A model generated the notes under the pieces. It had not been told where the DNA came from, ran no database searches, and saw only the letters and a list, made by a program, of their open reading frames with translations. Position numbers and translations under genes: made by a program. Positions 1,911 through 42,929 of a stretch of DNA of 64,000 nt are shown in pieces. Every line of letters begins with the position of its first letter. The stretch's first letter is position 1. The DNA is from Fragilariopsis cylindrus CCMP1102 (lineage: Eukaryota > Bacillariophyta > Bacillariophyceae > Bacillariales > Bacillariaceae): positions 186,001 to 250,000 of the forward strand of contig FMBT01000315.1 in assembly GCA_900095095.1 (NCBI GenBank). The letters run 5' to 3'.

Positions 1911-2722
1911 TATGATTGTCCATGGTCATGAGTGTGGGGATCGACGCATACCCTTGTTTGCAATTGCCTACTTCTTTCGCCCCTTCCTTTAGTATTAGTA
2001 ATACTAATGAGAGTTGGTGTGCGCCTTTAGCTACTGGCAAGTAATGGTGGCTTTAGTCCCGGCAGGATCTCATCAATACCGCAAGGATGGAATGTATGAT
2101 GATAAGGTAGCACCTACCAGTATGAACCACCTGAATGATTTGTTTGCACAACCTGTTGTACACAAATATCTCTATTATTTACCAATTTAAATGAAGATTT
2201 ATTTAATGTACTTCTATAGCATTCCTTTTCTTCAACACAAATAACAACAGCACATCAATCAATCCATCCATTCAATCATTATCAATGCATCAAATGTTGT
2301 TTACATTATTATGCTTCAAAAAGTAGAGGGGAATTAATTGTTGCAAAAAATTGCTCCTGTTGAATCCAACCCAATAGTGAAAGTTGTTAGACAGAGAATC
2401 ATAGAATGTTAGGGTATATTGTTTTTTGGTGTACTAAGTCCATATTGATGGTGCATCAAGGCCTTGATTGCACACACTTTTGTTATTTTGGGGATTTCAG
2501 TGTGCTTTGAAGTGCTGGGTTTTGACCCAAGACACTCCAAATATATGGTATGGCTTTCTAGAACAATGGTATTATCCAATCCTTCTATAATTAAGATGGA
2601 TCCTTAGCTATTTTATTTGTGATCAGCAAATCTGGTATGGTATGGGCGTGGCACTCTAGCATCTGAAATATTTTTGCAATATCCATAATGATTTTTTTTC
2701 ATCGCGCTCGACTCATTTGACT

Positions 2723-2756
2723 AAATGAAACTCATATCTGAGTTTCATTTTTTTTT
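2723..2756 (+). repeat. Left terminal inverted repeat, copy 1
   Basis: A 34-bp repeat whose core, GAAACTCATATCTGAGTTTC, is itself nearly palindromic and is followed by a T9 run. It is the exact reverse complement of 10199-10232. Confidence 0.85.
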
Positions 2757-3288
2757 AGATCAACGCTTCTTTTTTTTCAAATTGAAGCAATCTCACGTAG
2801 GATTCTACAGGACTTTCAGTACTACAGATCCAATTTATGACAATTTAAAGGGGGTAGTACACAAATTTCATTATTATGTGATTTTTTTCATGTGTCGTCG
2901 ATCGGAAAATTTCGATCCAGGACGGACAAAGAAAAATAACTTGACAATGGCACATACCGTAATCCTTCTTCCCAGGTCTACTCAACAATATTTGAGGTCA
3001 TGCCGATGCTAATGGGAAGCGAAATGGCGCTCAAAGCAATTGAAATGGAGAATAATGATGGACCGGTATGTTTGATTTTGCACCTCTCCCTCCATGGTTC
3101 CATCGTTCCATCGTTCCATCATTCCTCTCTCCTATCATTAAAACTGGTACTGTCGCCGTCATCGTCATTGACGTCGTCATCAAAACGGCTTGTAGTAGTA
3201 GCAGAAGAAGAAGCGACATCTGAAGAAGAAGAAGTGATACTGCGATATCATCACAACGACAACGACGACAACAACAACAACAACAACG

Positions 3289-6200
3289 ATGGATGATTCG
3301 TACGATCCTACCTTCCTTAATGCTGATGTTGATGTGGACTTTGACTTTCTTCGGGCACAGACTCAATATCAGGATGATATTAATAACTGTTGGATCTCAG
3401 AAGGACAAGCAGAAGAAATAACAGATCCTAGTGATTTTCCTTGTGCAGCTGATTGGAAAGACGATGCACCAGATATTATTTCTAATACAGTAGTAACAGT
3501 GGATAAGGGCCGTATTCATATATGGAAACAAGGAAAGACAGAAATCCGAATCATCCGTACTGTATGGGGAGAAGATCATCCTACATTTGATACACTTGCT
3601 ACTAGAATATTTGGACCTAGGAGCAAGTTATTTCATTTATTTGAAGATGAATTATCTTTATCCTATGAAAAATACTGCAGATTTCTTGCTACTTTCTTTG
3701 CCGCATCAAGTAGAAGTTCACCTGCCTCACGACTACTAGCGGACAATCGATTTGATTCTACTGGCATGATGGAAAAGATGGAATATCATAGACTCATCAG
3801 GCAGATAGAAGAACACAGGAGTGGTGATGAATCATTGTGGATGCAGATAGAAGAATTATTTAATTCACTTACTAAAAAGCACTTTCTTTCAGAAAGAGGT
3901 GAAGAAGAACTTTACATCGCATTGGATGACGACAAGCACCATTTCAATTATTCTAAACACGCTGATACGTATGGTTTACAGAGAATGCGTCACATCAAAA
4001 ACCAATAGAATGGGCCATACAGCACATACTGCAGGTTTAAGTGCAACAGGAATGCCTCTCTGTGTTATGTTTCAGAGAGAAGATGAAGCGCAATCACAAG
4101 TGTATGAAAGGATGTGTAAGAAGATGTTTGGTGGTCGAACTGGTAATGGTGATCCAAATCTTCAAGGTACGTTGTTTTGTTTGCTTTGGTTATTGTTCTG
4201 ATTCGATCCGATCCGATCCGACGCGAATTGTACTGTACTGTACTGTACTATATCGATTCGGATCGATTCGTTCCGTTCGGATTCGATTCGATTCGATTTG
4301 ATTTGATTTGATTTGATTTTTATTGGTCAATAATTATTATGTAATTGTTCCTTGCCGAAAACCATTGGCCTGAAATGATAATGTAAATTTTCTTTACCGA
4401 AAATTATTGGTCCAGAATTATTATGTAAATGATCTTTACCGAAAACCTTTGGTAAAAAATAATTATGTAAATGTTCTTTGCCGAAAACCTTTGGTCAAGA
4501 ATCATTATGTAAATTCTCTTTACCAAAAATTGATTGTCAAGATTTAATATGTCAATGTTCTTTGACGACCGGTCATTTTTCTTGACTGATTTCGTTGCTT
4601 ATATATTTATTTTTTAACTTACAGTACATTGTTTCTTTTTTTAATCTAATAAAATATAGGAATCACTTTTGGTTCCGATCGAGGATACTGGACTCCTTCT
4701 CTTCTATTTAAGTTTCTTCTACAGTGTGGAGCCGATGTGGTTGGTACTGTAGCTAGATGCTTCTGGTATCCCTTTACATTCACAAAAGGGAAGGTGACAT
4801 CGATACCAGAAGTTGACACACACAATAGAACTGAAATTAGGATGAAAGGAGCAAAGGATGTATTCTACAAGACATTGAAATGGGGTAGTGCTAAGATCCG
4901 AGCAACATGTTACAGAACTGGCACTGGCACTGCTGTTTCACTTGCTATGTCAACACTTCATCATGGTCCTTTATTTGATTTGAATCTATCATTTCCCAAG
5001 GATCACAAGTGGTATTTTAATCGAACCATAACACAAGATGAACGTAATAGCAAAGCATTTCCTGTTGTGGCTGGATCATCAGATCATTATGATATCATTA
5101 AAGCTCTACCAATCCGTCCTTTGACTCTTGTACAAGGTGATACTGCTTGGTTCATCATGAGACAATTTTCATTAACATCATCTACTGTTGATAAATGTAT
5201 TTCTTCAAGATGTAGAGAGATAACACAAGACCATGCTCTCCGGGAATCATACGAGACTGTTCTACATGCTGTTGATCGAATGAATCTATTACCAAGGGGA
5301 TCTGATTACAATGATGCAAGAAGAAATAATAATAGTAGTAATAATAATAATACTACTACAAACCGGCGAGCAAGAGGAAGGACTGCATTGGATGATATTA
5401 TTGGTGGTGACAGTGGTAGTGATAGTAGTGACGATGAAGCAGAACTACAACCACCCATGGATTGGGCATCGAACTGGATCCGACGCGTCAATGACGGCGA
5501 AGATGGTCTATTCAGAGATAGACTCAACTCTGATAATATGGATCATTCTATTATTAGAGGGATCATTGATAAGCATGATAATGGCAAATCAACAGGAAGC
5601 ATATCAATTTTGAAGAAGAAACTCATAGCATGGTCTGAATTGCCTTCCTATCTCTATAGGAAGTACTACTTTTGTACAAGTCAACAGCTCAAGGATCGAA
5701 TATTAGAATTGGATGGTCAAGCAACAGTAGCAGGGAAGAAAAAGGATGCTTTGGTTGATCTGGTTGTGCGTTGTGAAAGGAAAAGAATCGGTCGCAATAC
5801 AACTTTAAATAATAATCAAGATCCATACGATGGAGAGATGACGATGATGATGAAGATACTGTTGATCCTGTATTACTAGATATATTTAAAGCATCGAAAA
5901 TGAAGCCTTTAAAGGATGAAGCCAAGGCCTATTGCAGACAAGGACACCTTCTAGAACGTCCCATTTTGGAACAGTTCCACCAGCACAGTAAGGAAGGACT
6001 TACACGTGGTTACAAGTCAATTGCTATTCATGAAACACCAGTTGGTACGTTGTTCTATTTGCTTTGTTCTGATTTGATTTGATTTGATTGATTTGATTCG
6101 TTTTGATTGATTGATTCGTTTTGATTGATTGATTCGTTTTGATTGATCCGATTTGATTGATCCGATTTGATTGATCCGATTTGATTGATCCGATTCAATT

Positions 6201-7935
6201 ATTTTTGCACAGATTTAGTCCTAATTTCGATCAGATTTAGTCCTTCCTTGTCTGATTTCGCCACAGATTTAGTCCTTCCTTGTCTGGACCAGTCAATTTC
6301 CGGACTGATTTAGTTGCTAATGTTTCGTAATCGACTATATATTGTCTCACTTTTATCTATCTATCTATTTTCTAATCACTTTGAATACAACCAGTTGAAT
6401 CGACATCAATCACAGGTGCATTGGATTCATCAGATGCTGAACTTATCTACAAGAAAGAAGATCATGCTGCTAATGATAGTGGTAGTGGTAGTGATACCGA
6501 TGATGATGATGATATTGCTATTGAAACTATGCCAATTGAAATCAAAGCTCGTGTTGCTCATTCCACTTTCTATTCTGAAAGATATTTACTTGAAGCTAAT
6601 AGTGGCTTATCTGCATTCGAAAGTGGAGAACCTGTCTATGTTGGAAATCGATGCAGAGGGCGGAGAGCTCCACAAGTGGATTCCAAAGCACAAGGAAAGT
6701 TTTTCAATTACTTCACCATGTTGCTATTCGTGATGCAAGGAAGGGTCTCTTTCTTGTTGGGAACAAGACGAAATTGATGTTTGGTGTGTTTGTTACATAC
6801 AGTGATAATCTTATTGCTTCCTACCGGGCTCTGTTGAAAGATCTTTTTGATCGTGCTTTGAAGCCGTTCTATGAAGACAGTATACAACTACCACAAGTGA
6901 AGATTGAGAAGATTTTACAAGCAAAGGAAATGAAGAAACTTAATATGACCTATCATTCTTTTCAACTGACTTCTATATTTGGAGGCAGTTACGTATCAAG
7001 AAGCATTACCACTACAGTACCCTTGTAATCGGATCCTTCCTTACAATCATTCAGTGTGGAATAACTTGAAGGGTGCTTCCGATACAGCACAAAGCTGATG
7101 TGGAACTGTCAGATCAAGTTTGCTTCTAGTGGTCGGTCTCAAGTGGTTGCTTTTGCTAAATTCTTACAGCTCTATTCTATTCTATTACATAGAGAATATC
7201 AAATTGCTACAGCCAAGCCCGACTTGAACTTCTATGCATCTCTTCATCATTTCCGGAATACAAGAAATCAAAACTATCCTTTCCACAAGACAGTTGATAG
7301 GCTTTCTGTTTGGTTCATCAAGAATGCAGATGATGCAGTGGCTGCTGCTGCGGCTGCTGTACCTCCTACTCCTCCTACCACTGCACTAACTATCGATACT
7401 ACTGGAAGCAACGGTCCTCTTGTTCAATCACCTCCTCCTCGAGTACAACGGAGTAACAGAAGCTCATTCCAAGCGATTAGAAACTATACCACAATCACTG
7501 GTGGTACTCCTGGCAAAGGACGAGCCATAGATCCCAAGAACAAGACAGCTGAATGGGAAGCAGATCAAGATCGTCTGAAGAATTGTAATGGTGTTCTATA
7601 TTATACCAAAAGAAATAAGTGCTGTATTTGTGGTGTTCAATCTAATTTTGTATGTGTTATATGCAAAAGATGGTATTGTTGTAAGAACCAAGATGAAAAG
7701 ATAAATAATATGATCTTAGCTAACGATTCTAGAGTTGCATTTTTGGGTGGGGAACGACCGCCTAGTGAATTAGTAATGAATGGTGTAGCGCTGATGGAAG
7801 TACAAAAGAGTTCTGTACTGTTGAAAATGGATGCTTTCATATGCATCACCGGCAATCAATTTCAAGAAGAATTAACATCCTTGATGGATCACATTCTACC
7901 CCGGCACTAGTGAGTCGATGGCAGTAGAAGAATAA
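3289..7935 (+). pseudogene. DDE transposase / PD-(D/E)XK nuclease fusion, copy 1
   Basis: Same gene as at 13674-18312. Exons are about 3289-4166, 4660-6044 and 6416-7935, with GT-AG introns. The start ATGGATGATTCG matches copy 2. Exon 1 is broken near 3995 by an extra A, and further indels lie near 5838, 6640-6780, 6965-7100, 7450 and 7790. The second acidic motif, GSDRGYW, spans the first splice junction region and is intact here (about 4671-4695), whereas copy 2 has a frameshift there. Each copy keeps frame where the other loses it, so this may be consensus error in a repeat rather than a true pseudogene. Functional status is uncertain. Confidence 0.6.
4285..4581 (+). repeat. Minisatellite module in intron 1, copy 1
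   Basis: A (GATTT)n stretch followed by about five degenerate copies of a ~45-bp unit containing CTTTACCGAAAACC, TTTGGT and ATTATGTAAAT. The same module recurs, in the same orientation, downstream of the gene at about 8090-8372. Confidence 0.8.
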
Positions 7936-8089
7936 AAGTATTCGTATTCGTATACGTGTTGTATTACTACTGCTATTTTAATTTGTAGTATGTAAATAAG
8001 TAATGATAATAATAGTATTTATATTATAAACTTTATCTCTTTGTTATTATACTAGTATTAGATCTATGATTCGTTCCGATCTGATCCGA

Positions 8090-8372
8090 TCCGATTCGAT
8101 TTGATTTGATTTGATTTTTATTGGTCATAATTATATGTAATTGTTCCTTGCCGAAAACCATTGGCCTGAATGGTAATGTAATTTTCTTTACCGAAAATTA
8201 ATGGTCCAGAATTATTATGTAAATGACTTTACCGAAAACCTTTGGTAAAAAATATTATGTAATGTTCTTTGCCGAAAACCTTTGGTCAGAATCATTATTA
8301 AATTCTCTTTACCAAAAATTGATTGTCAAGATTTAATATGTCAACGTTCTTTGACGACCGGTCATTTTTCTA
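8090..8372 (+). repeat. Minisatellite module 3' of fusion gene, copy 1
   Basis: Direct repeat of the intron 1 module, lying after the fusion gene stop. It is shortened by several one- and two-base losses relative to the same place in copy 2 (18470-18760). Confidence 0.8.
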
Positions 8373-8640
8373 CGATTGTATTACTACTGCTATTAGAAGA
8401 ATAAACAACGTATCGTATGTTACATTGTATTTGTATTACTACTGCTATTTGTATTTGTATTTGTATTTGTATTTGTAGTACGTAAATAGATAATAGTAAT
8501 AGTATTTATAACGTTATCTTTGTTATTCTAGTGTTAGATTTATGATTCGATTTGATTCGATTCAATTCATCAATGCAATTCATTTTGATTTTCATTCCGT
8601 CCACAATTCATCATACCGATGATAGTGTTACTGTCGTCTA

Positions 8641-8958
8641 ATGAAATAAAAAAGGTAAATACTTCATCAGCATGAAATAACAGAAGGGAATACAGTAGCT
8701 GTAGAAGATGTGACAGTCATCCTCCCCATCCTGTGATTGTTATTCCTGCTTGTGATCGGCTTGAATCTGATGTTAACACCAAACACCAGTAAGTGAAATG
8801 ACTAATTCTGGGAAGGGAACTGATGGCCACTTAATATCATCATAAACTAGGAGCCTCTTCAAGACGGAATCAATTGCAATACTACCATTAAATCCTAAAC
8901 CAGGCCGACTAGATCTCTCCCACATCGGACACTGCATTCTAATTCGATTGTCGGTCAT
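8641..8958 (-). CDS. Small element-encoded ORF A, copy 1 (frameshifted)
   Basis: Counterpart of 19029-19346. The start and first 58 residues are the same. One extra A in a homopolymer near 8787 then shifts the frame and stops it after 61 residues. The rest of the reading frame is still recognisable down to about 8641. No known domain is seen. Confidence 0.35.
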
Positions 8959-9165
8959 GGTGGTGGTACTTGTTTGTTATAATTTGTTGTTGCTGTTGTT
9001 GCTTTGTTTATTTTCTATTGATAATTTATGAAGATAACAATAATAATAATAATACGTCGTCATGCTTGTATTGGTATTGTTTTCTATTTATAATTTGTTA
9101 GGATAACGTTACTGTAGTAATAATAATAAGAAGAAGAATAATAAAACGAGTTGAGTTGATTGCCA

Positions 9166-9298
9166 ACTTTCTTAAGAGAGGTCTAACAGACAGATTCTCC
9201 ACAAGGAGAGAAGCATTGCTAGAATAATAATTTATTGTTCTAGCAAGGCTTCTCTCCTTGTGGAGAATCGGTCTGTTGGTCCTCTCTTAAGAAAGTCG
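9166..9298. repeat. Long inverted repeat between ORFs A and B, copy 1
   Basis: Arms of about 60 bp (for example TTCTCCACAAGGAGAGAAGC pairing with GCTTCTCTCCTTGTGGAGAA) meet at an AT-rich centre near 9230. Similarity continues outward less perfectly toward both start codons. Confidence 0.9.
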
Positions 9299-9433
9299 GC
9301 GTCGACACAACGACTCAACTTGTTGTACTCACTTATTATTATTATTATTATCATTCTTATTATTACTACAGTAACATTATCCTCATTAATTATAAATAGA
9401 AAATAAACAAAAGCAACAACAACAACAACAAAA

Positions 9434-9877
9434 ATGAAGACATCATTTTCTGTAAAAGTAATCATCGAATCAAATGAAGTTGGTGATGGTGGTGCTGCTG
9501 CTGCCGAAGCTAATGGTGGTGGTAACGACAGTCCTATTGTTTGATTTGTTTCTTGCTCAATGCATGGAAAAATGATCAATGATGCAATCAAGAAGTATGT
9601 CCAAGTCAAGGGTGCTCGTACCATTGAAGAAGAAGAAGAAGAAGATATCTCCAGTCCTCTTCCACAACGTCGAGTTCCTTTAGATGCTGATGCTGATGCG
9701 GATGCGGATGATGATTCTACTGTCGATCCAGACGCTTCGAATGACAATGACGATGAAGATGAAGATGAAGATGAGGTCGGTGATCTACCACCTAACGTCG
9801 AGATTGACAATGAGTTTGAGGAAGACTACCAGCTCTCCCAGAAGATGGGATTGATGAGTCTTCGTCGTCGCGATTAA
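9434..9877 (+). CDS. Small acidic ORF B, copy 1 (two compensating indels)
   Basis: Counterpart of 19820-20263 with the same total length. One extra T near 9540 and one missing A near 9570 offset each other, so about ten residues in the middle are out of frame and contain a stop (TGA near 9542). The start, the Asp/Ala-rich region and the C-terminus match copy 2. Confidence 0.4.
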
Positions 9878-10198
9878 GATAGATAGAGACTACCACCATT
9901 GCCACTATTAATAATAATAATAATAAATAATCAACTCTTTCTAAAATACTTTTTAAACTGAAATTCGATCGAAATGAAGGGCATGGGAAAGTATTTGTTT
10001 TCATCATTCATAATCCAACCCATTGCTTCTACTAGAATTAGAAATAGAACATCTATCTTGATTGCTCAAATCACCCCAAATCGACATCCCTTGGTGTTTT
10101 CATCAGTTTGTTGTCTTCGACGACGAACAATATGTTGTTCCTTATCTTTCCTTGCTTTTTATGTGTCAAAAATTTACATCTTGTTCGTCGTCGATTTC

Positions 10199-10232
10199 AA
10201 AAAAAAATGAAACTCAGATATGAGTTTCATTT
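10199..10232 (-). repeat. Right terminal inverted repeat, copy 1
   Basis: Exact reverse complement of 2723-2756. Fifteen bases further out lies a second, related palindrome (TAAAACTCATATTTGAGTTT, 10247-10268). A separate hairpin sits just inside the end, where TCGACGACGAACAA near 10117 pairs with TTGTTCGTCGTCGA near 10180. Confidence 0.85.
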
Positions 10233-11392
10233 TTTTGAAACGTGGATAAAACTCATATTTGAGTTTTAAAAAATCACCATGGATATGTGTATTTTGGGCC
10301 AATTTGTGTTTATTCTATTGTTCTCTGCCCCATCACACCACAATATGGCTAATGTTCCAGGTATTGTTAGTGTATTTTGATCATATGCATATATGGAAGG
10401 TATCTGGATGTTCAAACCACGACCCAATTGCTTTTTTTGATGTTGTGCTGGCCTATTTCTAAATGCCACTTTTTGGCATGTTGGCCAGAACATGATGTTG
10501 AGGGTTGCAGATGACAACACCTGCCAAGTCAGGTGCACAAGCATCCACATAGTGTACCAGAATATTTTGTGTGCCTCCTACAACTTTTCTTTTCCTGTGG
10601 TTTGTGACGCACTTGCTGTAATGTATCAAACCATCATCATCAAAAACAACTTGCGCAACTAAAAATGACTAGTTCCACGCAAAGAATTAATCAAGCCTTT
10701 CAATAGGTCACCCGGCAGAAAAATTCAAAAGAATGGTATAACAGACCAAAGTGGTACTAGTGATACGCTATACAATTGCATTTCCCTGTCCTAATATTGT
10801 TGGGATTCTGCCAGGAGCGTGGTTACAACCTTATAATCTAGTCCCAAAATTAATCCAATTCCCCAGTCACATTGAATTGGTATGCTGTTTTTGCTTTTGT
10901 TGATAGTTCCAGGATGTCCAATTCTGTTGTTGCTACTGATGTCAATTGATTGATTGTTTGCACACACTATCTCTATTGTGTAGTGAGTATTTTGTCATCA
11001 TTTTAATTTGGGGAGAAGTGCCTGTTGCTGTTGAATCTGCTGCTGCTATGTCTGTTGTGATGGTTGAATTTCCTAGTAATTATTTTTTCTAGTAGTAGTG
11101 TTGGTGTATACAATGTTTTGTTGCTCAAGGAATGACATTGTGCTTTGATGTTGATTATAGTTTCTTTACTCTTTTTAAACTATTTCTACTATTTCAATTA
11201 TTGTGTCATGCCTCCCGCCTCATCTTGGTCTGGGATGTAACTTATGTATGGATCCATTCAATTTACAGTGTTTGTTACCGTTTTCTTCCTGTTGGTGGTT
11301 CTCTGTATCCTTGATGTGTCTACAAGTCATACTGGTATGTCTAACATAGAATTCATATGTCCAACAGTAGTTGTCATTATACCATCTTTGAG

Positions 11393-12290: not shown

Positions 12291-13105
12291 ATGTATGATT
12301 GTCCATGGTCATGAGTGTGGGGATCGACGCATACCCTTGTTTGCAATTGCCTACTTCTTTCGCCCCTTCCTTTAGTATTAGTAATACTAATGAGAGTTGG
12401 TGTGCGCCTTTAGCTACTGGCAAGTAATGGTGGCTTTAGTCCCGGCAGGATCTCATCAATACCGCAAGGATGGAATGTATGATGATAAGGTAGCACCTAC
12501 CAGTATGAACCACCTGAATGATTTGTTTGCACAACCTGTTGTACACAAATATCTCTATTATTTACCAATTTAAATGAAGATTTATTTAATGTACTTCTAT
12601 AGCATTCCTTTTCTTCAACACAAATAACAACAGCACATCAATCAATCCATCCATTCAATCATTATCAATGCATCAAATGTTGTTTACATTATTATGCTTC
12701 AAAAAGTAGAGGGGAATTAATTGTTGCAAAAAATTGCTCCTGTTGAATCCAACCCAATAGTGAAAGTTGTTAGACAGAGAATCATAGAATGTTAGGGGTA
12801 TATTGTTTTTTGGTGTACTAAGTCCATATTGATGGTGCATCAAGGCCTTGATTGCACACACTTTTGTTATTTTGGGGATTTCAGTGTGCTTTGAAGTGCT
12901 GGGTTTTGACCCAAGACACTCCAAATATATGTATGGCTTTCTAGAACAATGGTATTATCCAATCCTTCTATAATTAAGATGGATCCTTAGCTATTTTATT
13001 TGTGATCAGCAAATCTGGTATGGTATGGGCGTGGCACTCTAGCATCTGAAATATTTTTGCAATATCCATAATGATTTTTTTTCATCGCGCTCGACTCATT
13101 TGACT

Positions 13106-13139
13106 AAATGAAACTCATATCTGAGTTTCATTTTTTTTT
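13106..13139 (+). repeat. Left terminal inverted repeat, copy 2
   Basis: Identical to 2723-2756 and the exact reverse complement of 20588-20621. Confidence 0.85.
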
Positions 13140-13673
13140 AGATCAACGCTTCTTTTTTTTCAAATTGAAGCAATCTCACGTAGGATTCTACAGGACTTTC
13201 AGTACTACAGATCCAATTTATGACAATTTAAAGGGGGTAGTACACAAATTTTCATTATTATGTGATTTTTTTTCATGTGTCGTCGATCGGAAAATTTCGA
13301 TCCAGGACGGACAAAGAAAAATAACTTGACAATGGCACATACCGTAATCCTTCTTCCCAGGTCTACTCAACAATATTTGAGGTCATGCCGATGCTAATGG
13401 GAAGCGAAATGGCGCTCAAAGCAATTGAAATGGAGAATAATGATGGACCGGTATGTTTGATTTTGCACCTCTCCCTCCATGGTTCCATCGTTCCATCGTT
13501 CCATCATTCCTCTCTCCTATCATTAAAACTGGTACTGTCGCCGTCATCGTCATTGACGTCGTCATCAAAACGGCTTGTAGTAGTAGCAGAAGAAGAAGCG
13601 ACATCTGAAGAAGAAGAAGTGATACTGCGATATCATCACAACGACAACGACGACAACAACAACAACAACAACG

Positions 13674-16600
13674 ATGGATGATTCGTACGATCCTACCTTC
13701 CTTAATGCTGATGTTGATGTGGACTTTGACTTTCTTCGGGCACAGACTCAATATCAGGATGATATTAATAACTGTTGGATCTCAGAAGGACAAGCAGAAG
13801 AAATAACAGATCCTAGTGATTTTCCTTGTGCAGCTGATTGGAAAGACGATGCACCAGATATTATTTCTAATACAGTAGTAACAGTGGATAAGGGCCGTAT
13901 TCATATATGGAAACAAGGAAAGACAGAAATCCGAATCATCCGTACTGTATGGGGAGAAGATCATCCTACATTTGATACACTTGCTACTAGAATATTTGGA
14001 CCTAGGAGCAAGTTATTTCATTTATTTGAAGATGAATTATCTTTATCCTATGAAAAATACTGCAGATTTCTTGCTACTTTCTTTGCCGCATCAAGTAGAA
14101 GTTCACCTGCCTCACGACTACTAGCGGACAATCGATTTGATTCTACTGGCATGATGGAAAAGATGGAATATCATAGACTCATCAGGCAGATAGAAGAACA
14201 CAGGAGTGGTGATGAATCATTGTGGATGCAGATAGAAGAATTATTTAATTCACTTACTAAAAAGCACTTTCTTTCAGAAAGAGGTGAAGAAGAACTTTAC
14301 ATCGCATTGGATGACGACAAGCACCATTTCAATTATTCTAAACACGCTGATACGTATGGTTTACAGAGAATGCGTCACATCAAAACCAATAGAATGGGCC
14401 ATACAGCACATACTGCAGGTTTAAGTGCAACAGGAATGCCTCTCTGTGTTATGTTTCAGAGAGAAGATGAAGCGCAATCACAAGTGTATGAAAGGATGTG
14501 TAAGAAGATGTTTGGTGGTCGAACTGGTAATGGTGATCCAAATCTTCAAGGTACGTTGTTTTGTTTGCTTTGGTTATTGTTCTGATTCGATCCGATCCGA
14601 TCCGACGCGAATTGTACTGTACTGTACTGTACTATATCGATTCGGATCGATTCGTTCCGTTCGGATTCGATTCGATTCGATTTGATTTGATTTGATTTGA
14701 TTTTTATTGGTCAATAATTATTATGTAATTGTTCCTTGCCGAAAACCATTGGCCTGAAATGATAATGTAAATTTTCTTTACCGAAAATTATTGGTCCAGA
14801 ATTATTATGTAAATGATCTTTACCGAAAACCTTTGGTAAAAAATAATTATGTAAATTTCTTTGCCGAAAACCTTTGGTCAAGAATCATTATGTAAATTCT
14901 CTTTACCAAAAATTGATTGTCAAGATTTAATATGTCAATGTTCTTTGACGACCGGTCATTTTTCTTGACTGATTTCGTTGCTTATATATTTATTTTTAAC
15001 TTACAGTACATTGTTTCTTTTTTTAATCTAATAAATATAGGAATCACTTTTGGTTCCGATCGGAGGATACTGGACTCCTTCTCTTCTATTTAAGTTTCTT
15101 CTACAGTGTGGACCGATGTGGTTGGTACTGTAGCTAGATGCTTCTGGTATCCCTTTACATTCACAAAAGGGAAGGTGACATCGATACCAGAAGTTGACAC
15201 ACACAATAGAACTGAAATTAGGATGAAAGGAGCAAAGGATGTATTCTACAAGACATTGAAATGGGGTAGTGCTAAGATCCGAGCAACATGTTACAGAACT
15301 GGCACTGGCACTGCTGTTTCACTTGCTATGTCAACACTTTCATCATGGTCCTTTATTTGATTTGAATCTATCATTTCCAAGGATCACAAGTGGTATTTAA
15401 TCGAACCATAACACAAGATGAACGTAATAGCAAAGCATTCCTGTTGTGGCTGGATCATCAGATCATTATGATATCATTAAAGCTCTACCATCCGTCCTTT
15501 GACTCTTGTACAAGGTGATACTGCTTGGTTCATCATGAGACAATTTTCATTAACATCATCTACTGTTGATAAATGTATTTCTTCAAGATGTAGAGAGATA
15601 ACACAAGACCATGCTCTCCGGGAATCATACGAGACTGTTCTACATGCTGTTGATCGAATGAATCTATTACCAAGGGGATCTGATTACAATGATGCAAGAA
15701 GAATAATAATAGTAGTAATAATAATAATACTACTACAAACCGGCGAGCAAGAGGAAGGACTGCATTGGATGATATTATTGGTGTGACAGTGGTAGTGATA
15801 GTAGTGGACGATGAAGCAGAACTACAACCACCCATGGATTGGGCATCGAACTGGATCCGACGCGTCAATGACGCGAAGATGGTCTATTCAGAGATAGACT
15901 CAACTCTGATAATATGGATCATTCTATTATTAGAGGGATCATTGATAAGCATGATAATGGCAAATCAACAGGAAGCATATCAATTTTGAAGAAGAAACTC
16001 ATAGCATGGTCTGAATTGCCTTCCTATCTCTATAGGAAGTACTACTTTTGTACAAGTCAACAGCTCAAGGATCGAATATTAGAATTGGATGGTCAAGCAA
16101 CAGTAGCAGGGAAGAAAAAGATGCTTTGGTTGATCTGGTTGTGCGTTGTGAAAGGAAAAGAATCGGTCGCAATACAACTTTAAATAATAATCAAGATCCA
16201 TACGATGGAGAAGATGACGATGATGATGAAGATACTGTTGATCCTGTATTACTAGATATATTTAAAGCATCGAAAATGAAGCCTTTAAAGGATGAAGCCA
16301 AGGCCTATTGCAGACAAGGACACCTTCTAGAACGTCCATTCTTGGAACAGTTCCACCAGCACAGTAAGGAAGGACTTACACGTGGTTACAAGTCAATTGC
16401 TATTCATGAAACACCAGTTGGTACGTTGTTCTATTTGCTTTGTTCTGATTTGATTTGATTTGATTTGATTTGATTCGTTTTGATTGATTGATTCGTTTTG
16501 ATTGATTGATTCGTTTTGATTGATCCGATTTGATTGATCCGATTTGATTGATCCGATTTGATTGATCCGATTCAATTATTTTTGCACAGATTTAGTCCTA

Positions 16601-18312
16601 ATTTCGATCAGATTTAGTCCTTCCTTGTCTGATTTCGCACAGATTTAGTCCTTCCTTGTCTGGACCAGTCAATTTCCGGACTGATTTAGTTGCTAATGTT
16701 TCGTAATCGACTATATATTGTCTCACTTTTATCTATCTATCTATTTTCTAATCACTTTGAATACAACCAGTTGAATCGAATCAATCACAGGTGCATTGGA
16801 TTCATCAGATGCTGAACTTATCTACAAGAAAGAAGATCATGCTGCTAATGATAGTGGTAGTGGTAGTGATACCGATGATGATGATGATATTGCTATTGAA
16901 ACTATGCCAATTGAAATCAAAGCTCGTGTTGCTCATTCCACTTTCTATTCTGAAAGATATTTACTTGAAGCTAATAGTGGCTTATCTGCATTCGAAAGTG
17001 GAGAACCTGTCTATGTTGAAATCGATGCAGAGGGCGGAGAGCTCCACAAGTGGATTCCAAAGCACAAGGAAAGTTTTCAATTACTTCACCATGTTGCTAT
17101 TCGTGATGCAAGAAGGGTCTCTTTCTTGTTGGAACAAGACGAAATTGATGTTTGGTGTGTTTGTTACATACAGTGATAATCTTATTGCTTCCTACCGGGC
17201 TCTGTTGAAAGATCTTTTGATCGTGCTTTGAAGCCGTTCTATGAAGACAGTATACAACTACCACAAGTGAAGATTGAGAAGATTTTACAAGCAAAGGAAA
17301 TGAAGAAACTTAATATGACCTATCATTCTTTTCAAACTGACTTCTATATTTGGAGGCAGTTACGTATCAAGAAAGCATTACCACTACCAGTACCACCTTG
17401 TAATCGGATCCTTCCTTACAATCATTCAGTGTGGAATAACTTGAAGGGTGCTTCCGATACAGCCACAAAGCTGATGTGGAACTGTCAGATCAAGTTTGCT
17501 TCTAGTGGTCGGTCTCAAGTGGTTGCTTTTGCTAAATTCTTACAGCTCTATTCTATTCTATTACATAGAGAATATCAAATTGCTACAGCCAAGCCCGACT
17601 TGAACTTCTATGCATCTCTTCATCATTTCCGGAATACAAGAAATCAAAACTATCCTTTCCACAAGACAGTTGATAGGCTTTCTGTTTGGTTCATCAAGAA
17701 TGCAGATGATGCAGTGGCTGCTGCTGCGGCTGCTGTACCTCCTACTCCTCCTACCACTGCACTAACTATCGATACTACTGGAAGCAACGGTCCTCTTGTT
17801 CAATCACCTCCTCCTCGAGTACAACGGAGTAACAGAGCTCATTCCAAGCGATTAGAAACTATACCACAATCACTGGTGGTACTCCTGGCAAAGGACGAGC
17901 CATAGATCCCAAGAACAAGACAGCTGAATGGGAAGCAGATCAAGATCGTCTGAAGAATTGTAATGGTGTTCTATATTATACCAAAAGAAATAAGTGCTGT
18001 ATTTGTGGTGTTCAATCTAATTTTGTATGTGTTATATGCAAAAGATGGTATTGTTGTAAGAACCAAGATGAAAAGATAAATAATATGATCTTAGCTAACG
18101 ATTCTAGAGTTGCATTTTTGGGTGGGGAACGACCGCCTAGTGAATTAGTAATGAATGGTGTAGCGGCTGATGGAAGTACAAAAGAGTTCTGTACTGTTGA
18201 AAATGGATGCTTTCATATGCATCACCGGCAATCAATTTCAAGAAGAATTAACATCCTTGATGGATCACATTCTACCCCGGCACTAGTGAGTCCGATGGCA
18301 GTAGAAGAATAA
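13674..18312 (+). CDS. DDE transposase / PD-(D/E)XK nuclease fusion, copy 2
   Basis: Large spliced gene, probably about 1250 aa once single-base indels are allowed for. Exons are 13674-14550, 15041-16420 and 16791-18312. Both introns (490 and 370 bp) begin GTACGT, end AG, and join in frame across the splice. Domains in order: an N-terminal region and DDE core with LYIALDDDK (first acidic motif), then FGSDRGYW about 85 residues later, a spacing like that in piggyBac/IS4-type transposases; QGDTAWFIMRQF further on; a SAP-like helix (SQQLKDRILELDG...GKKKDALVDLV); a PD-(D/E)XK-like part with GHLLERPFLEQF, SSDAELIY and PIEIKARV (the ExK motif); a QLLHHVAIRDAR block; and a C-terminal finger (CCICG...CVICKRWYCC...CFHMHH) like the piggyBac Cys-rich tail. 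I recall similar large proteins in oomycetes and other stramenopiles. Frameshifts near 15060, 15110, 15340, 15480, 15700, 16120, 17160 and 17835 prevent one continuous frame. Transposase identity is inferred from motifs; the nuclease call is weaker. Confidence 0.7.
14670..14965 (+). repeat. Minisatellite module in intron 1, copy 2
   Basis: Same module as 4285-4581: pentanucleotide GATTT repeats, then five ~45-bp units, ending GACGACCGGTCATTTTTCT. It lies inside intron 1 of the fusion gene and is nearly identical to 18470-18760 downstream of the stop codon. Confidence 0.85.
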
Positions 18313-18469
18313 AAGTATTCGTATTCGTATACGTGTTTGTATTACTACTGCTATTTTAATTTGTAGTATGTAAATAAGTAAATGATAATAATAGTATTTA
18401 TATTATAAACTTTATCTCTTTTGTTATTATACTAGTATTAGATCTATGATTCGTTCCGATCTGATCCGA

Positions 18470-18760
18470 TCCGATTCGATTTGATTTGATTTGATTTTTA
18501 TTGGTCAATAATTATTATGTAATTGTTCCTTGCCGAAAACCATTGGCCTGAAATGGTAATGTAAATTTTCTTTACCGAAAATTAATGGTCCAGAATTATT
18601 ATGTAAATGATCTTTACCGAAAACCTTTGGTAAAAAATAATTATGTAAATGTTCTTTGCCGAAAACCTTTGGTCAAGAATCATTATGTAAATTCTCTTTA
18701 CCAAAAATTGATTGTCAAGATTTAATATGTCAACGTTCTTTGACGACCGGTCATTTTTCT
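18470..18760 (+). repeat. Minisatellite module 3' of fusion gene, copy 2
   Basis: Direct repeat of the intron 1 module at 14670-14965, about 160 bp after the TAA stop. Similarity begins in the GATTT run and ends at the GGTCATTTTTCT boundary, after which the two contexts differ. Confidence 0.85.
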
Positions 18761-19028
18761 ACGATTGTATTACTACTGCTATTAGAAGAATAAACAACGT
18801 ATCGTATGTTACGATTGTATTTGTATTACTACTGCTATTTGTATTTGTATTTGTATTTGTATTTGTAGTACGTAAATAGATAATAGTAATAGTATTTATA
18901 ACGTTATCTTTGTTATTCTAGTGTTAGATTTATGATTCGATTTGATTCGATTCAATTCATCAATGCAATTCATTTTGATTTTCATTCCGTCCACAAATTC
19001 ATCATACCGATGATAGTGTTACTGTCGT

Positions 19029-19346
19029 CTAATGAAATAAAAAGGTAAATACTTCATCAGCATGAATAACAGAAGGGAATACAGTAGCTGTAGAAGATGT
19101 GACAGTCATCCTCCCCATCCTGTGATTGTTATTCCTGCTTGTGATCGGCTTGAATCTGATGTTAACACCAACACCAGTAAGTGAAATGACTAATTCTGGG
19201 AAGGGAACTGATGGCCACTTAATATCATCATAAACTAGGAGCCTCTTCAAGACGGAATCAATTGCAATACTACCATTAAATCCTAAACCAGGCCGACTAG
19301 ATCTCTCCCACATCGGACACTGCATTCTAATTCGATTGTCGGTCAT
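19029..19346 (-). CDS. Small element-encoded ORF A (105 aa), copy 2
   Basis: Encodes a 105-residue basic protein beginning MTDNRIRMQCPMWERSSRP. I recognise no family and see no signal peptide or membrane segment. It lies inside the TIRs, downstream of and convergent with the fusion gene, and is divergent from ORF B. The 470 bp between the two start codons is a long imperfect inverted repeat that could act as a shared bidirectional promoter. The frame is broken in copy 1 by one base. It may be an accessory protein of the element, or a chance frame beside a promoter; codon evidence is thin. Confidence 0.4.
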   Translation of the reverse strand: MTDNRIRMQCPMWERSSRPGLGFNGSIAIDSVLKRLLVYDDIKWPSVPFPELVISLTGVGVNIRFKPITSRNNNHRMGRMTVTSSTATVFPSVIHADEVFTFLFH

Positions 19347-19553
19347 GGTGGTGGTACTTGTTTGTTATAATTGTTGTTGCTGTTGTTGCTTTGTTTATTT
19401 TCTATTGATAATTTATGAAGATAACAATAATAATAATAATACGTCGTCATGCTTGTATTGTATTGTTTTCTATTTATAATTTGTTAGGATAACGTTACTG
19501 TAGTAATAATAATAAGAAGAAGAATAATAAAACGAGTTGAGTTGAGTTGCCAA

Positions 19554-19684
19554 CTTTCTTAAGAGAGGTCTAACAGACAGATTCTCCACAAGGAGAGAAG
19601 CATTGCTAGAATAATAATTTATTGTTCTAGCAAGGCTTCTCTCCTTGTGGAGAATCGGTCTGTTGGTCCTCTCTTAAGAAAGTC
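19554..19684. repeat. Long inverted repeat between ORFs A and B, copy 2
   Basis: Near-perfect arms (19554-19613 and 19622-19684) centred on about 19618. Outside them the two flanks remain related in inverted orientation. TTATAAATAGAAAATAAAC and TACTACAGTAACATTATC upstream of ORF B (19746-19795) match the reverse complement of stretches at 19386-19416 and 19467-19512 upstream of ORF A. The structure is therefore a palindromic intergenic region with mirrored TATA-like sequences. Confidence 0.9.
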
Positions 19685-19819
19685 GGCGTCGACACAACGA
19701 CTCAACTTGTTGTACTCACTTATTATTATTATTATTATCATTCTTATTATTACTACAGTAACATTATCCTCATTAATTATAAATAGAAAATAAACAAAAG
19801 CAACAACAACAACAACAAA

Positions 19820-20263
19820 ATGAAGACATCATTTTCTGTAAAAGTAATCATCGAATCAAATGAAGTTGGTGATGGTGGTGCTGCTGCTGCCGAAGCTAAT
19901 GGTGGTGGTAACGACAGTCCTATTGTTGATTTGTTTCTTGCTCAATGCATGGAAAAAATGATCAATGATGCAATCAAGAAGTATGTCCAAGTCAAGGGTG
20001 CTCGTACCATTGAAGAAGAAGAAGAAGAAGATATCTCCAGTCCTCTTCCACAACGTCGAGTTCCTTTAGATGCTGATGCTGATGCGGATGCGGATGATGA
20101 TTCTACTGTCGATCCAGACGCTTCGAATGACAATGACGATGAAGATGAAGATGAAGATGAGGTCGGTGATCTACCACCTAACGTCGAGATTGACAATGAG
20201 TTTGAGGAAGACTACCAGCTCTCCCAGAAGATGGGATTGATGAGTCTTCGTCGTCGCGATTAA
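19820..20263 (+). CDS. Small acidic ORF B (147 aa), copy 2
   Basis: An intact frame for a 147-residue acidic protein, starting MKTSFSVKVIIES. It has a short predicted helix (FLAQCMEKMINDAIKKYVQV), an E6 run, a DADADADAD repeat, a D/E-rich stretch and a basic end (SLRRRD). It starts just after a (CAA)n leader, about 200 bp from the centre of the long inverted repeat, and ends about 325 bp before the right TIR. No known domain is seen. The acidic composition would suit a binding partner of a basic DNA-binding protein, but that is speculation. Confidence 0.5.
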   Translation: MKTSFSVKVIIESNEVGDGGAAAAEANGGGNDSPIVDLFLAQCMEKMINDAIKKYVQVKGARTIEEEEEEDISSPLPQRRVPLDADADADADDDSTVDPDASNDNDDEDEDEDEVGDLPPNVEIDNEFEEDYQLSQKMGLMSLRRRD

Positions 20264-20587
20264 GATAGATAGAGACTACCACCATTGCCACTATTAATAA
20301 TAATAATAATAATAATAATCAACTCTTTCTAAAATACTTTTTAAACTGAAATTCGATCGAAATGAAGGGCATGGGAAAGTATTTGTTTTCATCATTCATA
20401 ATCCAACCCATTGCTTCTACTAGAATTAGAAATAGAACATCTATCTTGATTGCTCAAATCACCCCAAATCGACATCCCCTTGGTGTTTTCATCAGTTTGT
20501 TGTCTTCGACGACGAACAATATGTTGTTCCTTATCTTTCCTTGCTTTTTATGTGTCAAAAATTTACATCTTGTTCGTCGTCGATTTC

Positions 20588-20621
20588 AAAAAAAAATGAA
20601 ACTCAGATATGAGTTTCATTT
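20588..20621 (-). repeat. Right terminal inverted repeat, copy 2
   Basis: Exact reverse complement of 13106-13139. The outer related palindrome is at 20636-20657, as in copy 1. Confidence 0.85.
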
Positions 20622-20771
20622 TTTTGAAACGTGGATAAAACTCATATTTGAGTTTTAAAAATCACCATGGATATGTGTATTTTGGGCCAATTTGTGTTTA
20701 TTCTATTGTTCTCTGCCCCATCACACCACCAATATGGCTAATGTTCCAGGTATTGTTAGTGTATTTTGATC

Positions 20772-23190
20772 ATATGCATATATGGAAGGTATCTGGATGT
20801 TCAAACCACGACCCAATTGCTTTTTTTGATGTTGTGCTGGCCTATTTCTAAATGCCACTTTTTGGCATGTTGGCCAGAACATGATGTTGAGGGTTGCAGA
20901 TGACAACACCTGCCAAGTCAGGTGCACAAGCATCCACATAGTGTACCAGAATATTTTGTGTGCCTCCTACAACTTTTCTTTTCCTGTGGTTTGTGACGCA
21001 CTTGCTGTAATGTATCAAACCATCATCATCAAAAACAACTTGCGCAACTAAAAATGACTAGTTCCACGCAAAGAATTAATCAAGCCTTTCAATAGGTCAC
21101 CCGGCAGAAAAATTCAAAAGAATGGTATAACAGACCAAAGTGGTACTAGTGATACGCTATACAATTGCATTTCCCTGTCCTAATATTGTTGGGATTCTGC
21201 CAGGAGCGTGGTTACAACCTTATAATCTAGTCCCAAAATTAATCCAATTCCCCAGTCACATTGAATTGGTATGCTGTTTTTGCTTTTGTTGATAGTTCCA
21301 GGATGTCCAATTCTGTTGTTGCTACTGATGTCAATTGATTGATTGTTTGCACACACTATCTCTATTGTGTAGTGAGTATTTTTGTCATCATTTTAATTTG
21401 GGGAGAAGTGCCCTGTTGCTGTTGAATCTGCTGCTGCTATGTCTGTTGTGATGGTTGAATTTCCTAGTAATTATTTTTTCTAGTAGTAGTGTTGGTGTAT
21501 ACAATGTTTTGTTGCTCAAGGAATGACATTGTGCTTTGATGTTGATTATAGTTTCTTTACTCTTTTTAAACTATTTCTACTATTTCAATTATTGTGTCAT
21601 GCCTCCCGCCTCATCTTGGTCTGGGATGTAACTTATGTATGGATCCATTCAATTTACAGTGTTTGTTACCGTTTTCTTCCTGTTGGTGGTTCTCTGTATC
21701 CTTGATGTGTCTACAAGTCATACTGGTATGTCTAACATAGAATTCATATGTCCAACAGTAGTTGTCATTATACCATCTTTGAGTCACTCATACGCCATAT
21801 TTTCCATTGCTGATGTAGCTTTTTCCTCCTTGTTTATTGTTGCTACCATATCCTCCTTCTCCACTTTCAAGTCAATTGATTTTGTCTGTTGGTGCTTTGA
21901 TTGTTGCCACTGTTGTGTCCTGTATACAGGTGATTGTTGTGGCTGTTGTGTCATTAAGACTGCATGTAATAATTGTGCTTCTTGTTGTTTTTCTAATTGT
22001 TCAATTTTGTCATTATTTGCTTCTACTGTTGCCTGTGCAAGAATTTGTTGGTTCTCTTTGTTTTGACTGACCCCTTCTTTTACTGCATTAGCAATACCAA
22101 TTGCTTTCAATGTACCTGCATCATCACTTCTTTTCTTTGATTGCTTTTTTGTGTAATGGGACTTGAATTTCTTCCAAATTGATGTCAGATTTTAGCTTGA
22201 GGTGTTCTTTGAATTGATTTAATCACTACCAGATGAGGGTTGGTTCATCAATGATTTCATTTAATGATTCAAGAGTATTACACGTTCCGTGTACTGCTGC
22301 TTTGTAATAAACCTGGGACTCTTCATTTGGATCAGTACTATACTGTGTGTGTTTGGATTTCTGCTATAACTACATCCTCTGATTGTACATATTCCAATAG
22401 TATAGGTGTTTAATAACAGTTCAATTGCTGTGTATCCAACTACCTAGTCTCCATTGTCATCCTGTTTTTTGTATTTCAAGGAAGTGGTATTCTTTGAATG
22501 CGCGCATGGCCATTTTCTTTGTTGCTGCTTGTGCCAGTTTGTACCGGTTCCATGTTTGTTGTTCTGCCCTATGGACTTCTAGCTTTAAGTGTGTTGTCCC
22601 ATTGTGTGCTCCTAGGTTGATAGGTGGGGCAATTGGTGCTGTTATTGTCTCTTTATGAGCAAACCCCTTTTGTTCCATTGAATGTATGATTGTCCATGGT
22701 CATGAGTGTGGGGATCGACGCATACCCTTGTTTGCAATTGCCTACTTCTTTCGCCCCTTCCTTTAGTATTAGTAATACTAATGAGAGTTGGTGTGCGCCT
22801 TTAGCTACTGGCAAGTAATGGTGGCTTTAGTCCCGGCAGGATCTCATCAATACCGCAAGGATGGAATGTATGATGATAAGGTAGCACCTACCAGTATGAA
22901 CCACCTGAATGATTTGTTTGCACAACCTGTTGTACACAAATATCTCTATTATTTACCAATTTAAATGAAGATTTATTTAATGTACTTCTATAGCATTCCT
23001 TTTCTTCAACACAAATAACAACAGCACATCAATCAATCCATCCATTCAATCATTATCAATGCATCAAATGTTGTTTACATTATTATGCTTCAAAAAGTAG
23101 AGGGGAATTAATTGTTGCAAAAAATTGCTCCTGTTGAATCCAACCCAATAGTGAAAGTTGTTAGACAGAGAATCATAGAATGTTAGGGGT
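20772..23190. repeat. Tandem array unit 3, truncated
   Basis: The third unit matches units 1 and 2 closely up to the sequence ttaggggt at 23190, then changes abruptly to unique DNA leading to the 5S rRNA gene. It contains only spacer sequence (gag-like relic and flanks). About 285 bp of the spacer and the whole TIR-bounded element are missing. This point is the right-hand boundary of the array. Confidence 0.93.
21784..22680 (-). pseudogene. Gag-like retroelement relic, spacer copy 3
   Basis: Nearly identical to 11393-12290: the same 73-aa and 108-aa fragments in the same order. The relic was therefore already decayed before the array was amplified. Confidence 0.4.
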
Positions 23191-42902: not shown

Positions 42903-42929
42903 AATGCAGGAGCTGGACTTCTTAGTAGC

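Follow-up and report, generated by a model that had tools for sequence, protein, structure and literature searches.

A piggyBac-like DNA transposon family of Fragilariopsis cylindrus in which transposase tails and end palindromes co-segregate, with a possible nuclease nested in the transposase core

What kind of mobile element lies behind a long spliced gene of the diatom Fragilariopsis cylindrus CCMP1102 in which transposase-like and nuclease-like motifs occur together? The gene was noticed at positions 13674-18312 of a 64,000-nucleotide stretch of contig FMBT01000315.1 (assembly GCA_900095095.1, positions 186,001 to 250,000 of the forward strand), hereafter the window, and a preliminary description presented it as a transposase fused to SAP-like, nuclease-like and zinc-finger parts. 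These coordinates do enclose the coding part, the main gene of a transposon, but the mobile unit itself is larger and spans 13066-20670 (7605 bp, with CCAT..ATGG termini). The element works like piggyBac in most respects visible from DNA, probably with a nuclease added. The best-supported new fact, and the best evidence for function in this analysis, is that the C-terminal Cys/His tail of the transposase and the palindromes near the transposon ends match each other from copy to copy. Our favoured reading, to which we give a probability of roughly 45%, is a piggyBac-like cut-and-paste DNA transposon in which a YqaJ-type nuclease would be nested in the catalytic core and the tail would bind the end palindromes as a dimer.

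The limits of the transposon were set by comparison with copies elsewhere in the genome (67.9 Mb in 818 contigs searched). The silicic acid transporter family has 27 matches in these contigs, the best at 1.1e-226, which marks the host as a diatom. Alignments to these copies begin at 13062 in two of the three left-flanked copies (13049 in the third) and end at 20674 in three. One terminus reads 5'-CCATAATG, the other 5'-CCATGGTG or similar, and ATAT flanks both. With up to three mismatches allowed, a 20-mer taken from the terminus matches the genome at 130 places, against 27 for the same pattern read backward. Of the seven places fetched, five are complete small copies (194-213 bp), each with ATAT on either side. 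When the flanks of one of them, 211 bp long, are joined by a single ATAT, they correspond to an empty site on contig C679 over 304 gapless positions (297 identical, 7 mismatches); a second empty site, on C360, has 7 mismatches plus one 4-bp difference elsewhere. Because of these empty sites and the limits of the alignments, we take the duplication to be the 4-bp ATAT and the element to be 13066-20670. The family is thus mobile with a 4-bp ATAT target duplication, the length of which was established from a small copy, and the termini, target duplication, small copies and empty sites bear out the earlier assignment of the gene to a transposase.

Nine copies of the gene, plus short partial matches, lie on six contigs: four tandem units on the window's own contig (C72) and further copies on C375, C80, C742, C240 and C640, the last of which, as far as the searches show, lacks exon 1 and the beginning of exon 2. 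The single spliced gene that had been proposed appears to hold, with three predicted exons and two GT-AG introns (Table 1). A string search across eight copies located donor 1 in seven, acceptor 1 in three, donor 2 in six and acceptor 2 in four, and every site located is GT or AG. The window copy, however, has frame shifts inside exons 2 and 3, exon 1 being open. LDDDK, PIEIKARV and the Cys/His tail, all named earlier, are intact in it, but SDRGYW, the other proposed motif of the DDE core, is out of frame there (15058); L017-L020 and the second copy in the window have it whole. The copies on C80 and C742 are open throughout the three exons (1248 and 1251 amino acids, 88% identical). Exon 2 is open in L017, L018 (the C375 copy), L019 and L020 (the C742 copy), and exon 3 in L017, L019, L020 and L064, while the C240 copy carries many stops. 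When the transposons of the four tandem units are aligned, 7 substitutions stand against 85 indel columns, 84 of them private to one unit and 69 inside or next to a homopolymer run, loosely defined as two or more identical bases. The frame breaks in the tandem units are most likely read or assembly errors, because decay would leave more substitutions. The ratio of nonsynonymous to synonymous substitution rates (dN/dS) is 0.11-0.31 across 16 comparisons of open exons, from which L018 exon 3 and L021, with broken frames, were excluded; the gene is under purifying selection in the open copies. Taken by part between L019 and L020, the ratio is 0.23 for the nuclease part, 0.10 for the third-Asp part and 0.30 for the tail.

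How much of this protein is a piggyBac-like transposase? Numbered along the C742 copy, the protein has LDDDK (212-216), GSDRGYW (at 297), GTVAR (from 321) and MSTIHH (at 389). These are followed by VQGDTVWFIMRQFSLTSST (from 450), a SAP-like stretch (about 625-655), GHLLERPF (at 713), GALDSSD (at 747), PIEIKAR (at 784), FQLLHH (at 840), YNHSVWNNLKGASD (955-968) and the Cys/His tail (1147-1223). Matched by eye, the order D..D..YN..D follows piggyBac; the DDD triad and its RNase H-like fold are predictions from these motifs. The labels given to the motifs in this comparison come partly from PMC7351741. Residues 955-968 likely correspond to Y439, N440 and D447 of piggyBac, where Y439 and N440, shortly before D447, contact the TTAA loop (PMC7351741). 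If 955-968 is the stretch of the third Asp, the nuclease-like region falls between the second and the third Asp, and about 500 extra residues precede the likely third Asp relative to piggyBac. The nuclease-like region would then be nested in the transposase core, before YN..KGASD, and not appended to it. PiggyBac's own RNase H-like core is split after its fifth strand by an insertion domain of three strands, and other DDE/D transposases have their insertion domains at the same topological position (PMC7351741).

The extra residues hold the motifs of the lambda-exonuclease/YqaJ nucleases in order, namely Q..W...R...TSS, GxxxE, D, ExK and Q. The first of them, QGDT.WF..R..SLTSST, sits upstream of the part named in the preliminary description. 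A pattern of the five ordered motifs, composed after the sequence was seen, occurs in four of five family sequences (the fifth is without its N-terminal part), in 11 of 13 lambda-exonuclease sequences and in none of 20000 shuffles. Against a profile of 13 phage lambda-exonuclease sequences, hhalign gave a sole alignment, LVQGDTVWFIMRQFSLTSSTVD at residues 449-470, covering the N-terminal motif and not significant by itself (probability 0.3%, E-value 0.21). A nuclease piece excised by hand, with linker and SAP-like part removed, scores 5.7 bits on this profile, a value reached by 1 of 2000 shuffles (reversed sequence, -2.0); the same piece scores 6.1 bits in the C72 copy and 4.7 bits in L019. 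The whole unexcised protein scores 1.9 bits, with 8 of 1000 shuffles as high. From these motifs and scores, the odds lean slightly towards a PD-(D/E)XK nuclease of the lambda-exonuclease/YqaJ type. The nuclease-like region with its ExK motif is therefore retained from the earlier account, less firmly and with a changed position, probably not after a complete core but before its third Asp. The SAP-like DNA-binding helix proposed there found no backing, as neither the whole protein nor two pieces of it match a Pfam SAP domain at E-values up to 10.

Several results weigh against this picture of the core and the nuclease. The spacing from the Asn to the likely third Asp is 12 residues here and 7 in piggyBac. 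No Pfam family matches the whole protein or six pieces of it at E-values up to 10; the window fragments have only weak, unrelated Pfam matches (MAPEG, 0.015; Tra1_ring, 0.2), and the protein has no relevant sequence match in the PDB. PF13843 (piggyBac) has at least 53 matches in the genome, none at this family, and piggyBac profiles built from two and three sequences gave no support for the catalytic pieces. The proposed check by AlphaFold, run as an AlphaFold2 model of the window's exon 2 alone, gave a mean predicted local distance difference test (pLDDT) score of 31.8, and so nothing usable either way. On the nuclease side, the first motif alone already gives 4.7 bits, and the C-terminal core without it gives -1.3. 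The nuclease piece is unmatched in Pfam, NCBIfam, PHROGs and the PDB, and the matches of PF09588 (YqaJ) in the genome, at least four at two loci, include none at this family.

These points give substance to the strongest competing explanation, in which the transposase is piggyBac-like and the middle 500 residues form a non-catalytic DNA-binding insertion with an ExK motif by coincidence. That no library recognises a nuclease, and that its C-terminal core has no score by itself, speaks for such an insertion; the five lambda-exonuclease motifs in their proper order and purifying selection in this part (0.23, from one pair of copies) speak for a nuclease. We regard the non-catalytic insertion as a serious contender, although the less probable account.

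The tail and the palindromes bring us to how the transposon's ends may be recognised. The Cys/His tail has the spacing CxxC-x7-CxxC-x4-C .. C-x5-C-x-H, to be compared with CxxC-x11-CxxC-x4-C .. CxxCF in piggyBac, and hhalign, run against two piggyBac sequences, paired the tails at an E-value of 0.046 (probability 1.2%). A contrary sign is that its top match in the PDB is the zf-HIT finger of ZNHIT1, which is insignificant (0.21). According to PMC7351741, the Cys-rich domain of piggyBac, as a dimer, binds to a palindromic repeat of 19 bp located in the ends. All 11 ends that were read of gene-bearing copies hold a palindrome of at least 24 bp, which begins 31-47 bp from the tip in the 10 ends whose tip is present. 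By the same test, a second palindrome lies nearer the tip in three of six right ends (window, C80 and C640), and three of eight ends of small or unplaced copies have a palindrome at that place. The letters of the palindromes vary between copies, yet the pairing is kept in 99 of 100 cells (97 without T-G) across 10 ends. Two-sided changes occur in seven of 10 pairs (3 of 500 shuffles as high), the covariation score is reached by none of 500 shuffles, and slid versions drop to 35-47% paired; on the other side of the balance, further pair types are not unusual (159 of 500 shuffles). This test used 10 of 19 end pieces, leaving aside four with the same core or class as rows used (win_R, L020_L, C640_R and L071_R) and five without such a palindrome at that place (L065_L, L067_L, L067_R, L068_L and L071_L). 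The palindromes are thus maintained through two-sided changes, and a symmetric palindrome is, by analogy, the kind of site that a dimer would bind.

The palindromes fall into classes, and so do the tails. Class A (window, C742 and C640) has half-sites TGAAACTCA and tails of 98-100% DNA identity. Class B (C80) has half-sites ATAATTCTCA, and its tail forms a separate type, 82-83% identical to class A. Class C (C375 and C240) has half-sites TGAAAACYG and tails, pieced together across stops, that are 87% alike and 77-79% identical to class A. The rest of the element is related differently. Between the window and C375, exon 1 is 98% identical, the tail 77% and the palindromes 75% and 72%; between the window and C742, exon 1 is 90% identical, the 5' leader 76%, the tail 98% and the palindromes 95% and 98%. 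Tail identity correlates with palindrome identity at both ends (r 0.90 left, 0.96 right; 10 pairs among five copies), and 3 of 120 relabellings are as high at each end. Among 11 other segments, the linker beside the tail alone tracks the palindromes (0.65 and 0.79), the rest ranging from -0.55 to 0.42. The C640 copy, of which the alignment held only the 3' part, was excluded. In the copies read, then, tail class and palindrome class co-segregate, in conflict with how the remainder of the element is related. It tells against a strong reading that the pattern is drawn from five copies and that the left end of the C80 copy is cut by the end of its contig.

Could such co-segregation be neutral, with gene conversion or recombination having moved 3' parts between copies and the palindrome arms converting each other? 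Arms of a palindrome can indeed do so, the tail and the right palindromes share the 3' half of the element, and the copies are mosaics. However, the tail is tracked by the left palindrome as well, at a distance of about 5 kb, and hitch-hiking of one 3' block is therefore no explanation; and the 5' leader, exon 1, ORF2, ORF3 (the two further open reading frames of the element) and positions 20264-20589 do not follow the tail. We consider the neutral account unlikely. The co-segregation and the Cys spacing sustain the piggyBac-like Cys/His tail of the preliminary description, and they strongly suggest that the tail recognises the end palindromes.

A further alternative is a Kolobok-related transposase, similar to KolobokE, in which a complete DDE core comes first, the nuclease lies downstream of it and the YN..KGASD stretch is not catalytic. 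Kolobok is characterised, among other things, by a C/DxxH motif between the second D and the E. Kolobok has TTAA duplications and 5'-RR termini (PMC9587614), in contrast to ATAT and 5'-CC here, and the tail and palindrome system resembles piggyBac; this relationship seems improbable. That the locus is a decayed relic or a host gene, with no working transposon gene, is very hard to sustain, since the broken exons 2 and 3 of the window copy and the stops of the C240 copy are outweighed by open copies elsewhere under purifying selection, by small copies with empty sites and by differences between the tandem units that are mostly indels and seldom substitutions.

Returning to the piggyBac-like transposon with a nested nuclease, a mechanism can be sketched in which both folds, the nesting, the dimer binding and the role of the nuclease are inferred. 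It would involve 1) binding of the subterminal palindromes by a dimer of the ~1250-residue transposase, via its C-terminal Cys/His domain; 2) cutting at the CCAT end beside ATAT, and joining to a new ATAT; and 3) processing of DNA by a PD-(D/E)XK domain of lambda-exonuclease/YqaJ type that would be nested between the second and third Asp of the RNase H-like core, in the place occupied in piggyBac by no more than a small insertion domain of beta strands. The nuclease would most likely act at the donor break, trimming the DNA ends (5' resection); repair from a sister copy would thereby be favoured and copy number raised. Alternatively, it may process a flanking flap or hairpin. We tentatively suggest, as a bolder possibility that may well fail, that a whole lambda-exonuclease-type nuclease replaces the insertion domain, so that one polypeptide would cut, join and resect, and that end recognition comes in interchangeable classes, each a Cys/His domain with the palindromes that match it, which recombination would reshuffle jointly among copies into mutually insulated families. 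If so, one may ask whether the nuclease steers donor-site repair towards copy gain. The matched classes of tails and palindromes would amount to naturally occurring variants of end specificity that share a scaffold, and could show how transposon families living in the same genome avoid cross-mobilisation and which residues read the ends.

Two further genes lie downstream of the transposase gene within the transposon (Table 1). ORF2 matches no family, and ORF3 none above the cut-off. For ORF2, dN/dS is 0.14-0.53 in 15 comparisons, five of which use a 49-codon piece, as the ORF2 of L018, cut at 49 amino acids, is included. For ORF3 it is 0.27-0.63 in 10 of 15 comparisons, and 0.55-1.62 in the other five, which involve unit 2 of C72 (frame change, cut at 49 amino acids). 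An AlphaFold2 model of ORF3, of low confidence (mean pLDDT 58.4), has a long helix over residues 34-60 and a shorter helix over 126-137. The inverted repeat between the two divergent starts has 69-nt arms, 91% complementary and one base apart, plus outer arms, as if one symmetric promoter drove both genes. A 42-bp repeat with the core ATTATGTAAATGTTCTTTACCGAAAACC forms one block in intron 1 and another past the stop codon of the transposase gene; the array is seen in the window, L018, L019 and L020 and has no match in L021.

Table 1. Positions, in the window, of the transposon, its genes and their predicted motifs
Feature	Position	Strand	Remarks
Tandem copy of the same transposon	2683..10282	+	unit 3 of 4 on the contig
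Left ATAT target duplication	13062..13065
Whole transposon	13066..20670	+	7605 bp; CCATAATG...ATGG termini
Left subterminal palindrome	13106..13133		class A
Exon 1 of the transposase gene	13674..14550	+	open in the window; candidate first catalytic Asp, LDDDK 14310-14318
Intron 1	14551..15040	+	GT-AG; 42-bp repeat array 14704-14951, not found in L021
Exon 2	15041..16420	+	candidate second Asp 15058-15060, GTVAR; frames broken in the window
Exon 2, motifs			first YqaJ-like motif ~15505-15564; SAP-like stretch ~16051-16150 (unsupported); GxxLE ~16318-16341
Intron 2	16421..16790	+	GT-AG
Exon 3, to the stop	16791..18312	+	frames broken in the window
Exon 3, motifs			candidate nuclease D (GALDSSD); ExK 16913-16921; Q ~17078; likely third Asp 17456-17458; Cys/His tail ~17954-18228
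Second 42-bp repeat block	18498..18741	+	97% identical to the intron 1 block
ORF2	19029..19346	-	~120 aa where the frame is open; in the window, frame change close to the end
Large inverted repeat between the divergent ORF2 and ORF3 starts	19390..19818
ORF3	19820..20263	+	147 aa; acidic second half
Right subterminal palindrome	20590..20625		class A
Second right palindrome, closer to the end	20636..20657
Right ATAT target duplication	20671..20674

The tandem array, at C72:167616-209190 and window positions 2417-23190, has four units, each about 10.4 kb long; two units fall within the window. Each unit is the transposon plus about 2.8 kb of the same flank, and the start and the end of the array seem to share one point in the unit (window 12800 and 23190). 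Two relatives on C108, L022 and L023, keep the start of exon 1, and L023 the right end also, as if internally deleted. The left flank of L070, a small copy, and window positions ~20780-20800, in the flank of the window copy, are alike by eye in 12-13 bases, by a shared repeat family or by chance. Elsewhere in the window, 42903-48089 holds a Ty1/copia-type retrotransposon frame of 1729 amino acids (RVT_2, 2.9e-40).

Relatives were also sought more widely. Viral contigs scanned with the family alignment, a 51-residue piece and two degenerate DNA patterns yielded none, nor did scans of the genome contig collection or of plasmids. Within the diatom's own genome, the DNA pattern for SDRGYW has 12 matches, seven at known places of the family and five elsewhere; two of these five, on reading, proved unrelated. 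At C760:119757-120023 lies a diverged relative of the second-Asp region, itself broken (32% identity over 88 residues, E-value 2.9e-5, with stops), with no nuclease part nearby at E-values up to 10, and weak partial matches to exon 1 occur at C662 and C714. The ordinary piggyBac matches of the genome, on C63, C420, C648, C354 and others, have open frames of up to 938 amino acids, and the one on C63, read in part, has the usual piggyBac motifs. A separate YqaJ gene, L169, has the usual motifs and broken frames and lies away from any place of this transposon family; its relatives, sought in viral contigs with a query that had one wrong letter, were not found there.

Where, then, does the element stand among known systems? 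Among the papers ranked best in a search of the literature, with subscription journals mostly and Repbase wholly outside it, none was seen to describe this family or a piggyBac-like core with a nuclease nested inside it, and passages of PMC12730594 hold nothing on pairing of transposase and nuclease. The protein has the five motifs of lambda exonuclease and YqaJ in order and, unlike them, no Pfam or NCBIfam match and a long low-complexity and SAP-like insertion between the first two motifs. PiggyBac elements have 5'-CC termini. With T. ni piggyBac and piggyBat, the diatom element shares such termini and a 4-bp AT-rich palindromic duplication, together with the order D, D..GTV.R, YN..K-G-x-x-D (by eye), a CxxC..CxxC-x4-C tail and palindromic end repeats. 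It differs in having no profile match, about 500 extra residues, two further genes and, in a difference that counts against our reading, the target ATAT instead of TTAA, as seen at the empty site. Because of the target and the missing profile match, we leave it outside the piggyBac superfamily. In ISL2EU elements, a YqaJ nuclease likewise travels with a DDE transposase, as a separate open reading frame and with AT duplications at an A|AT|T target (PMC4482050), whereas here the duplication is ATAT and the nuclease motifs are within the transposase gene. KolobokE is the known precedent for pairing the two activities. It encodes a lambda-exonuclease-like PD-D/ExK nuclease together with the transposase, downstream of its domain (PMC9587614), and the suggestion that both on one polypeptide would be unusual was therefore overstated. 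In both elements the nuclease follows the first catalytic parts, but in KolobokE it lies downstream of the transposase domain and in the diatom element it would lie within it; ATAT and 5'-CC further set the latter apart, a separation drawn entirely from the published description of Kolobok. If our reading is true, nesting would add a third route by which nucleases of the lambda-exonuclease type came together with eukaryotic transposases, beside downstream fusion and a separate gene.

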